From the IMG/VR virus record IMGVR_UViG_3300050821_013173, positions 1-24,718 of that record: a DNA stretch of 24,718 nt. One strand, 5' to 3'. The stretch's first letter is position 1; each line of letters begins with the position of its first letter. Source of the stretch: a virus. The translations under genes were made by a program, and so were the position numbers. Shown piece by piece: positions 20,225 to 24,718 of this stretch. The notes under the pieces were generated by a model, which saw only the letters and a program-made list of their open reading frames with translations, had not been told where the DNA came from and did no database searches.

Positions 20225-22003
20225 TCACGCGTAGATCGCCGGTGAGGGCCGCCGTACGACTGCCTCGCGCAGGGCCCAGCATGTGGCGCGCACGAGGTCC
20301 GACCGCTTGCCGCCCACGAGGTGCAGCCCGCCGATCACCTCCCGGACGCGCGCTGCGGCGAACTGCTCGTCGAGCTCGGGCGTGTCGTCGTGTACCAGGC
20401 GGCGCTGCGCGACCAGCGAGCGCAGCAGCGGCAGCCCGTAACGGGTCTCGGCCGAGCTCGCCCGCACACACGACCGGCGCGCCTGGTTCAGCGACGCCCC
20501 GAGGATCAGCGTGGCCGCCGCCGGATGGGCGGCGATCAACGCCTCGGCCTGGGCGACGGCGTCGAACCGGTCGACGCACAGCCAGCCGTCGACCTCGAAC
20601 ACGTCGCCACCCAGCGATGCCACTGCGGCGACCGCCGCGCCGTGGCCGTAGTTGTCCTCCACCGCCACCCACAGCCGGCCTGGGGTGGCGTCGGCCGGTC
20701 GACGCAGACTGCGCCACGCCGCCACGTCGACGAGGGCCTCGCCGCCCCCGACCGTCAGACGCCGCGGCCAGATGTTCAGCCACTGCGACCGCACCGCCTG
20801 CACCGGGTCCGGCTCGTCCGGGTCCTCCGATGCCTGCCCCGACAACGCCCGCCGCACCGCCTTGGCGATCAGCCGCTCACGCTGCGCCGACCAGTGCGGC
20901 GACGCCTGCCGCCACGCCTCACGGTCCTCGAGCTCGGCGTCGTAGGGCGCCGACCACTCCACAATCAGGTCACCCTCGGAGCCGTCGTCCAACACCTCGA
21001 GCGCGGCGGCGCGCCGGTCCAGCATCAGCGACGTCGCCATCCGATGCGCCGTCGACACCAACAGCAGCTGCGACTGTCTGGCCGCGACTGTGGTCGGCTC
21101 AAGCGCATCATCGACTGTCGTCGCCCGCACAGCCCACGCCTCATCGACCACCGCTAGCGATGCCGACCGTCCATACGACCCGCCGGATTGACGGGTGCCC
21201 TTCGACGCCACCAGCCACGACGAACCGTCGACCCGGCGAGTGATCGCCTCCTCGGTCTGCACCTTGCGAGTTGCGTACTCCGCCGGCCGAGCATCAGCCC
21301 ACGACTGCTCCGGGTTGAACACCGCCAGCGCGTGCGCGACCGACATCGCAACATGGACGAGCTCCTGCGGCTCACCGAACCGCTCGCCCTGATGCAGCCG
21401 CCACATCAACACCTCGCGCAGCAACCACGACTTGCCCAACTGGCGCGCCATCGATAACAGCGCCGTCTCCCATACGAGCCGCCCCGCCCCGTCGATCTCG
21501 AGCAACCGTCGCACGAACAAACGCTGGAACCAGCGCAACCGGCGACCACCGCGCGCCCAGACCCACCACTCGAACTCCCGACCCAGTGAGTCCACCGCCG
21601 CCGGATGCGGCACCGTCATCAGCCGCGGCCACTGTGCGTCGTCCGGCACCTCGCGCAGCTCATCCAGCCACGCCACATCCCACACCCCGTCGCCCACGTC
21701 GAGTCCCAACGGCTCGTCGTCCAGCGCGACCAGGTCATCGACCGGCTCGACCCGACGGGCCCTCGTCTCGTTCGCCAGCATCGCCGCCTGGCGCCGCTGA
21801 CACGGACCACACGCCGGCCGATACCGGCAACACCCCGAACCCTCAACATGACCCCGCGGGCCATGCCGAGACAATGGCGGGTCGTGATCCACTTCCGTCG
21901 CTGGCGCCCCCGCGCACACCAGCCGAAGCGCGCACGGCCGGCCCAGCAGCCGGCGCCGGGCCGCCTCATGATCCGGCCCATACGGCGAGCCCCGACGCGG
22001 CAT
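20225..22003 (-). CDS. terL: Large terminase with HNH-like N-terminal extension
   Basis: A 592-aa DNA packaging motor (ATPase plus nuclease). Residues about 10-75 look like an HNH/zinc module: Cys24, Cys30, the TEVDHDPPLS block with Asp39-His40, then Cys65 and Cys68 in PACGPCQRR. The usual HNH Asn after the last Cys is Gln69, so it may be degenerate. An acidic linker follows to about 125. The ATPase has Walker A ARQLGKS (186-192), Walker B LAVVDEA (283-289, Asp287-Glu288) and coupling motif LLLVSTAHR. The nuclease part has LWVAVEDNYGHGAAV and GKRSDLVRATCWAL. ATG 22003 is preferred; GTG 22069 would add 22 residues. No ribosome site is clear for either. Confidence 0.9.
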   Translation of the reverse strand: MPRRGSPYGPDHEAARRRLLGRPCALRLVCAGAPATEVDHDPPLSRHGPRGHVEGSGCCRYRPACGPCQRRQAAMLANETRARRVEPVDDLVALDDEPLGLDVGDGVWDVAWLDELREVPDDAQWPRLMTVPHPAAVDSLGREFEWWVWARGGRRLRWFQRLFVRRLLEIDGAGRLVWETALLSMARQLGKSWLLREVLMWRLHQGERFGEPQELVHVAMSVAHALAVFNPEQSWADARPAEYATRKVQTEEAITRRVDGSSWLVASKGTRQSGGSYGRSASLAVVDEAWAVRATTVDDALEPTTVAARQSQLLLVSTAHRMATSLMLDRRAAALEVLDDGSEGDLIVEWSAPYDAELEDREAWRQASPHWSAQRERLIAKAVRRALSGQASEDPDEPDPVQAVRSQWLNIWPRRLTVGGGEALVDVAAWRSLRRPADATPGRLWVAVEDNYGHGAAVAAVASLGGDVFEVDGWLCVDRFDAVAQAEALIAAHPAAATLILGASLNQARRSCVRASSAETRYGLPLLRSLVAQRRLVHDDTPELDEQFAAARVREVIGGLHLVGGKRSDLVRATCWALREAVVRRPSPAIYA

Positions 22004-22047: not shown

Positions 22048-22097
22048 CCGAGGGGGGGCAGAAGTGCACGGACGACGTCCGCTGGGTTGGTGGACAG

Positions 22098-22124
22098 AAA
22101 AAGTCGGCCGCCGGGTTCGGCCGA
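22098..22124 (-). terminator. Intrinsic terminator for leftward transcription
   Basis: On the minus strand TCGGCCG, a 7-base loop AACCCGG, and CGGCCGA form a perfect 7-bp GC-rich stem (22124-22104), followed by C and TTTTT (22102-22098). It is the clearest Rho-independent terminator in the window and lies between the small genes ending at 22202 and the terminase. Confidence 0.75.
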
Positions 22125-22411: not shown

Positions 22412-22833
22412 CACGTCGGTACAAGGTTGGCGAACTGGTCTCGGGTCCAGACCTCGAGCGGGCACAGGCCTTCGTCGCCGTCGAAGATGACGAGCCGCCA
22501 GGCGACTCCGGCGATCACGGCCGGGGTCCACACCGCGCCGATGGCGGCGCTGGCGCGCGCAGGGTCTGCTGGGAGCGGGATGCGCAGCTGGCGGCCGGAG
22601 ATGTCGACGTAGATCGCGACGTAGCCGCCGGGGTTGGCGCCGGGCTCGATGGCTTCGGGGAAGCCGGCCGGCAGCTCGTCGAGGATGCGGCCGCAGTCTT
22701 CGGCGATGAGATCTGCGATGCGTCGGCGGGCCGGGGTGTCGGCGGTGGCGGCGAGGTCCTGGGCCTCGAAGGTGAGGCGGGCGGCCTTGCGGGTGGCGGC
22801 GTCGATGGCGGGCGGGGTCCAGGCGATGGTCAT
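22411..22833 (-). CDS. Hypothetical phage protein, 140 aa
   Basis: ATG 22833 has GGAGGG but about 13 bases away, so initiation may be weak. Residues 1-55 are helical (DAATRKAARLTFEAQDLAAT and DLIAEDCGRILDELPAGFPE). The remainder alternates strands, with GGYVAIYVDISGRQLRIPLP and VIAGVAWRLVIFDGDEGLCP. No domain is recognised. It is not convincing as a small terminase: it has no DNA-binding helix-turn-helix that I can see. Confidence 0.7.
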   Translation of the reverse strand: MTIAWTPPAIDAATRKAARLTFEAQDLAATADTPARRRIADLIAEDCGRILDELPAGFPEAIEPGANPGGYVAIYVDISGRQLRIPLPADPARASAAIGAVWTPAVIAGVAWRLVIFDGDEGLCPLEVWTRDQFANLVPT

Positions 22834-23287: not shown

Positions 23288-23503
23288 GTGGAGATCATGC
23301 CCGCCGCCCACCACCACGGGATCAGCGACGACGACATCCGCCACGCCGTGCGCAACGCCTTCCGCACCGCCATCGAGGAGGGCTTCGTCATGCTCACCGG
23401 CCCCGACCAGGCCGGCAACCCGCTGGAGATCGGGATCCGCGAGACCGCCACCGGCCTCGTCATCTTCCACGCCATGCCTGCCCGCGACAAGTACCTGAGG
23501 TGA
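23288..23503 (+). CDS. Toxin-like small protein (BrnT/DUF4258-type pattern), 71 aa
   Basis: First gene of a rightward two-gene operon. GTG 23288 is preferred because it coincides with the predicted transcription start; ATG 23297, preceded by GGAG at short spacing, is the alternative. The protein reads HHHGISDDDIRHAVRNAFRT, then MLTGPDQAGNPLEIGIRETA and VIFHAMPARDKYLR. This order (H-x-I-x-x-x-D-I-x-x-A, G-x-x-x-x-G-x-x-L-E-I and a final HAMPAR-x-KY) is seen in short toxin-like proteins of actinobacteria related to BrnT-type RNases. Enzymatic activity is inferred from this pattern. It has no signal peptide or membrane helix. Confidence 0.7.
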   Translation: MEIMPAAHHHGISDDDIRHAVRNAFRTAIEEGFVMLTGPDQAGNPLEIGIRETATGLVIFHAMPARDKYLR

Positions 23504-24406: not shown

Positions 24407-24718
24407 TCATGGGTGACCGTTGCGTCGGGCTTGGGCGGCTTCGCGGGCTCGGCGTTGTCGGTCGCGGGCGGCGGCGCGGTCGGCGCGGACCTGATCGGCC
24501 GACGGGTTGTACTCGAGGTAGTCGGGCATCAGGAATCCCTCCTTGGTCTCGACCCACAGGCGGGTGCGGAGCAGCTTGTCGATCTCAGCGGCGCGGCCGA
24601 AGGTGTGGGCGACCTCGGCCGGGATGACGCCGTCGGTGAGGTACTGGGCGGAGTAGGTGCCGCAGCGCACCCAGAGTCCGGTGGCGGCGTTGCCGGCGCG
24701 GGTCACCTTGGGGTGGTT
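24407..24718 (-). CDS. Replication-type phage protein, 5' end beyond window
   Basis: The stop is at 24407 and the frame is open to the right window edge, so the N-terminus is missing. The visible 103 codons begin NHPKVTRAGNAATGLWVRCG and continue AQYLTDGVIPAEVAHTFGRA, then TRLWVETKEGFLMPDYLEYN and a strongly basic, Arg/Ala-rich tail. This matches a common actinophage protein with a winged helix-like replication-organizer domain (AGNAAxGLWVRxGSxxxxxLTDG then LWVE-x-x-x-G-F-x-x-x-DYLEYNP). The start GTG at 24706 seen inside the frame is internal and not the true start. Confidence 0.78.
   Translation of the reverse strand, partial: NHPKVTRAGNAATGLWVRCGTYSAQYLTDGVIPAEVAHTFGRAAEIDKLLRTRLWVETKEGFLMPDYLEYNPSADQVRADRAAARDRQRRAREAAQARRNGHP

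Follow-up and report, generated by a model that had tools for sequence, protein, structure and literature searches.

The locus analysed here raises the question whether a phage large terminase (TerL) can carry within its own polypeptide the HNH partner that accompanies terminases elsewhere, and what such a module would do there. Terminase HNH partners are already known, as separate proteins. Kala et al. are said to have described in 2014 the HK97 TerL (gp2) with a separate HNH protein, gp74. HK97 gp74 stimulates cos cleavage by TerL (PMC9410871). In the viral fragment of 24,718 bp analysed (the window), an earlier note had read one open reading frame (ORF) as a complete TerL ATPase preceded by an HNH/zinc module fused in cis. 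The parts of this ORF are as follows.

20225..22003, minus strand: TerL ORF, 592 aa (HNH module, linker, ATPase and RNase-H-like nuclease domain)
21758..22003, minus strand: N-terminal HNH/endonuclease-VII-like zinc module, residues 1-82 (supported by relatives' profiles, hhalign, structure and selection)
21674..21757, minus strand: variable linker, residues 83-110 (pLDDT mostly low, dN/dS usually relaxed)
20759..21652, minus strand: TerL packaging ATPase, approximately residues 118-415 (Walker A RQLGKS with K191; Walker B VVDE with D287-E288)
20243..20746, minus strand: TerL RNase-H-like nuclease domain, approximately residues 420-587 (D450 and D569 kept; HK97 D388 unaligned)

The ORF product is an HK97-type large terminase with a complete ATPase. 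Using PHROG profiles, residues 124-447 were matched to phrog_9 (terminase large subunit, E 3e-29). The full-length structure was predicted by AlphaFold (mean pLDDT 90.7), and its best structural match was HK97 TerL (6z6d; Z 25.1, residues 138-581). The Walker A Lys and the Walker B Asp-Glu were kept in 161/161 TerLs of the family described below, and the earlier claim of a complete ATPase following the module thus holds. A PDB sequence search with the full TerL returned a chance repeat-protein match and nothing useful. Translation confirmed the 592-aa length, Cys24, Cys30, Cys65 and Cys68, the motif TEVDHDPPLS (containing D39-H40) and Gln69 after the last Cys, all as first reported. Downstream, the gene order is the usual one of portal, prohead protease and then tail genes. 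Elsewhere in the window, a small gene beside the packaging genes (23291-23503, plus strand) matched phrog_17063 'toxin' (1e-8); a gene beside the packaging genes of the relative L007 (5800-6027, plus strand) also matched this family (1.5e-7). A partial replication initiation protein (24407-24718, minus strand; phrog_2447, 3e-29) is cut by the window end.

There is good support for the start at 22003, since the window and its relatives share the beginning MPRRGSPYG (ATG or GTG), and the reading frame upstream of 22003 is not conserved and overlaps a putative cos. A true start downstream of residue 75, which the earlier note had considered, is excluded because the module is under purifying selection. 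For the module, dN/dS was 0.04-0.39 across all the pairs in which it could be measured, near that of the TerL core, and amounted to 0.24 and 0.39 for the two pairs involving the window; in the linker it was usually more relaxed than in the module. The module is therefore translated with the ATPase, and it matters.

The key residues of the module are C24, C30, D39-H40, H47, H52, C58-C59, C65, C68, Q69 and Q72. With the window sequence alone, no HNH family was matched in Pfam or PHROGs. Seventy modules (64 fused and six separate) were aligned; PHROG HNH families matched 32, 22, 17 and 14 of these (best 5.6e-8), and Pfam Endonuclease_7 matched 12 (best 4.8e-5). Comparison of the module family with three annotated HNH/endonuclease VII proteins using hhalign gave 96% and E 4.7e-9. 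In the AlphaFold model, a strand at 37-41 holding D39-H40, a strand at 60-64 and a helix at 66-84 follow one another in predicted beta-beta-alpha order, and its top-ranking structural matches belong to HNH/endonuclease VII proteins (Cas5-HNH, Z 5.1; GVE2 phage HNH nuclease, 5.0; T4 endonuclease VII, 4.1). These Z scores are middling, and it is their agreement with the sequence evidence that carries the weight. Foldseek against the PDB with the module alone gave no significant match, and a PDB sequence search with the module gave sub-threshold Cas5-HNH matches only. Taken from the relatives' PHROG matches, hhalign and structure, the assignment as an HNH/endonuclease-VII-like zinc module is supported, and the reading of an HNH/zinc module in the earlier note holds.

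H47, H52, C58 and C59 (within 21827-21867, minus strand) were invariant in 70/70 modules of the window's type (type A). Canonical HNH proteins do not have these residues, which lie between the zinc Cys pairs and possibly form a second metal site. Separately, phrog_4581, named terminase small subunit, weakly matched HNH modules (L012, 1500-1800; L286, 575-1300), a hint that some small terminases may also be fused to HNH domains.

A first scan recovered 14 relatives and an alignment scan 413 contigs with a relative; profiles made from the retained loci yielded 161 distinct TerL cores of the fused family. An in-frame HNH module was present in 157/157 distinct members whose N-terminus is uncut by a contig end, so that the fusion is not a chance pattern. 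Type A accounts for 94 of these modules and type B (the phrog_1808 type, with matches to 1e-17) for 63. A FastTree tree calls for at least 7 exchanges between the two types, and the N-terminal slot of TerL is filled by three or more HNH subtypes. The HNH-TerL fusion is real and fixed across a large family of uncultured phages.

Bacterial genome contigs gave no match when scanned with the window protein alone, and eight related loci in the alignment scan. One of these, in an Acidimicrobiia MAG (L283), carries a type A module; the remainder lie in Nocardioides, Sphaerisporangium and Occultella genomes. A third HNH subtype was found at the N-terminus in L285, L286, L287 and L289, a type-B-like module in L290 and a weak type-B-like match in L284, while L288 gave no clear subtype. 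The TerL relatives with other HNH subtypes (L284-L287, L289 and L290) occur in sequenced bacteria, which are culturable hosts. Three full-length fused queries were compared with 50,697 phage records, none of which covered 80% of any query; a fourth query (L289) had no match at all. The viruses of the fused family probably infect soil actinobacteria.

TerLs outside the fused family are without the module. As a separate gene, it was found in 12 recovered records, all of which (12/12) also encode a separate TerL. Nine of the 12 are contigs of 13-16 kb in which TerL and a separate type A HNH gene lie close to opposite ends (L254, L256, L259, L262, L263, L272, L274, L276 and L278). In L281 the two genes are joined, HNH lying approximately 600 bp upstream of TerL, and this TerL is identical to that of L278, in which they stand at opposite ends; the separate HNH gene therefore adjoins TerL across the genome end. 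This placement in distant relatives resembles that in HK97, whose HNH gene stands upstream of both cos and terminase (PMC10448857). In fused type A genomes the fused copy was the only type A match, and no second HNH was detected as an above-cut-off Pfam HNH match in 20 genomes. Because distant TerLs without the module adjoin it as a separate gene, the arrangement looks like a fusion of partner genes, as the earlier note had proposed in speaking of a partner fused in cis; most simply, TerL and HNH genes that were already neighbours were likely joined. The partnership itself is supported by the separate HNH adjoining TerL in outgroups, by different subtypes re-filling the slot and by the lack of a second HNH match in the fused genomes examined.

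Directly upstream of the fused gene, at a distance of 50-100 bp, lies a putative cos, composed as follows.

22052..22102, minus strand: putative cos, placed from contig ends of relatives
22098-22102: T5 tract
22069-22081: dyad CGGACGTCGTCCG, with a contig-end-like point near 22073
22052-22058: C7 tract

Contigs of the family ended at most 200 bp upstream of the module in 94 of 161 cases, often with a C6-8 or CTCTCT tract after the end. In loci that continue across the end point, T5-6 is followed by a short stretch, the end point and a pyrimidine tract. The putative cos lies upstream of TerL in many loci, examples being L005/L007, L058/L067 and L280/L282. L005 begins exactly at GTCCGGGGACCGTTTCCCCCCC, and in L007 further sequence precedes GTCCGGGGACCGTTTCCCCCCC. 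An explicit cos pattern was present upstream of 36/58 genes and in 1/1995 background windows, a contrast that is somewhat flattering since the pattern was written after the sequences had been seen. The window's gene on the upstream side of the putative cos (22414-22833) could not be recovered from 12 relatives and therefore gave no confirmation of the genome ends. The element at 22052-22102 is termed a putative cos on the basis of assembly ends and not of mapped termini. As in the gp74 group, the fused module is thus encoded next to terminase and a cos, here a putative one.

Three residues make up the site of HNH nucleases, namely a His (accompanied here by Asp), an Asn in the middle and a final His or Asn that takes part in metal binding (PMC5304195). 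The D39-H40 pair was invariant in 70/70 aligned modules. The middle Asn corresponds to Arg60 in the window and is replaced in the type A modules inspected; the final Asn corresponds to Gln69. In 51 type A members the final Asn is present and the residue three positions on is Gly, Ala or Ser; in 40, including the window, the final residue is a different one and Gln stands three positions on; the exceptions are two members with both Asn and Gln and one with Gln/Gly. Two lineage-wide type A signatures result, C-N-x-x-G and C-x-x-x-Q. Most of the family keeps the final Asn, and in most of the window's clade it has become Gln, Ala, Ser or Gly. The Asn-to-Gln change after the last Cys to which the earlier note drew attention is accordingly real, but it is not particular to this phage, as the C-x-x-x-Q signature is lineage-wide and the middle Asn is replaced as well. 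With two of the three classical residues replaced and Asp-His kept, the HNH catalytic set of the window module is incomplete, and the module was therefore filed as HNH-like in fold and not as an HNH nuclease. In our judgement it is rather doubtful that the window copy cuts DNA; the Asn lineages are more likely to do so.

The nuclease site of HK97 TerL consists of Asp302, Asp388 and Asp471, a set that is not complete in the fused family: D302 is aligned with D450 and D471 with D569, and nothing was aligned with D388. Within the family, position 569 holds Asp in the window's clade and, outside it, mostly His. Unfused TerL relatives are also irregular in this triad, those of FlagStaff and Huntingdon being non-canonical. 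When the final HNH residue was set against TerL residue 569, 107 members combined Asn with a residue other than Asp, 37 combined a residue other than Asn with Asp569, and 6 were exceptions. A trade-off between the HNH Asn and D569 was rejected as an explanation, because the association, though strong by count, is essentially one deep event, independent pairs give no support and unfused TerLs are non-canonical as well. It is improbable that in most of the family the fused HNH took over cos cutting from a TerL nuclease missing part of its Asp triad, with the roles partly swapped back in the window's clade (HNH Asn lost, D569 kept) or a Gln-based metal site in use there. If this were true, the enzyme that does the cutting in the packaging motor could be swapped within one protein.

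The reading that we prefer, with a probability of about 0.62, is that an HNH-like module, derived from an HNH gene neighbouring TerL, was fused in cis to TerL and acts at cos as HK97 gp74 does in trans. The fused module would bind DNA at the putative cos just upstream of its own gene, tethered to TerL by the variable linker, and each TerL subunit would bring its own cos-processing domain. The module probably also nicks this DNA in most family members. In the window's clade, with Gln for Asn, cutting may be weak, may proceed via Gln69/Gln72 or may have been lost with DNA binding kept. As no small terminase was recognised among the ORF proteins tested (in a limited search, TerS families being divergent), the module might, speculatively, also help in cos recognition.

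Three other explanations were weighed. For the window's clade, the module may be an HNH that has lost catalysis and persists as a zinc-stabilised DNA-binding domain, serving the TerL nuclease by recognising or holding cos and perhaps partly replacing a small terminase. This would account for the substitution of the final Asn in most of the clade together with the loss of the middle Asn, for the D569 kept in the same TerLs, for the conservation of the Cys ligands, D39, H40, H47 and H52, and for the absence of a recognisable small terminase from the ORFs tested. Plain DNA binding does not, however, require the D39-H40 pair that is invariant in all 70 modules, the conserved Gln at +4 could act as a ligand, and the search for a small terminase was of limited reach, TerS families being divergent. 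We consider a dead HNH unlikely, without finding it far-fetched. Fusion by chance to a relic of a homing endonuclease inserted beside terL, with no role in packaging, would agree with the frequency of HNH homing-type genes next to terminase genes (PMC10448857) and with the several HNH subtypes at the same place; it is very improbable given that all 157 family members have the module, that purifying selection acts on it and that it lacks the scatter of a mobile gene.

The N-terminus might finally be an unrelated zinc ribbon without the HNH fold. Such a domain would explain why the window alone had no HNH profile match and why scattered weak zinc-finger matches occurred in other members, but the evidence from relatives, from profile-profile comparison and from structure points jointly to HNH/endonuclease VII, and the D39-H40 position and strand-strand-helix order are those of canonical HNH proteins. 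A zinc ribbon is hardly credible on this evidence. The preferred reading, of a module that acts at cos in cis, is of interest because a natural fusion sets HNH and terminase at 1:1, which argues that their association is functional. HNH-terminase cooperation at cos is hard to read with two separate proteins; in the fused protein, mutations within a single polypeptide could separate cos binding, nicking and translocation from one another, and natural variation at the catalytic site is available in the Asn and Gln lineages.

The open-access literature yielded no description of an HNH-TerL fusion, most subscription papers lying outside the scope of the search; papers on cluster AN Arthrobacter and Microbacterium phages mention HNH genes and fused genes but not this fusion. 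The fused sequences are not new to databases, since BFVD lists full-length 'HNHc domain containing protein' matches, and the same fused architecture appears to be deposited already in BFVD/UniProt. Two of these entries, A0A6J5RK67 and A0A6J5QUV0 (uncultured Caudovirales phage, 586-602 aa), were among the best full-length structural matches; they differ in sequence (19-23% identity) and carry automatic names only, no description of them having been found.

Among characterised proteins, the GVE2 phage HNH endonuclease (5h0m) and T4 endonuclease VII (1e7l) share with the module the fold (Z 5.0 and 4.1), the zinc Cys pairs and the Asp-His or His position. Both differ in being stand-alone proteins and in their final residue, which is His in GVE2 and Asn in endonuclease VII as against Gln in the window. 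The nearest named sequence relatives of the module are a stand-alone HNH protein of Streptomyces phage Rowa and an endonuclease VII of Mycobacterium phage Optimus, with 42-46% identity over part of the module of the relative L006; unlike the window module, they are not encoded beside TerL and keep the middle and final Asn. An N-terminal match in Rhodococcus phage AngryOrchard was discarded as chance (E 0.06; the translated stretch holds stops). In Mycobacterium and Arthrobacter phages, HNH genes of the phrog_1808 type located at the right end of the genome matched the type B module (approximately 58%, 1e-20); they differ in being separate, not fused to TerL. The closest system as a whole is that of HK97 TerL and gp74, which has in common with the window the TerL fold (Z 25.1), an HNH partner of terminase and the position of HNH upstream of terminase and cos; in HK97 the HNH is a separate protein, whereas here it forms the N-terminus of TerL.
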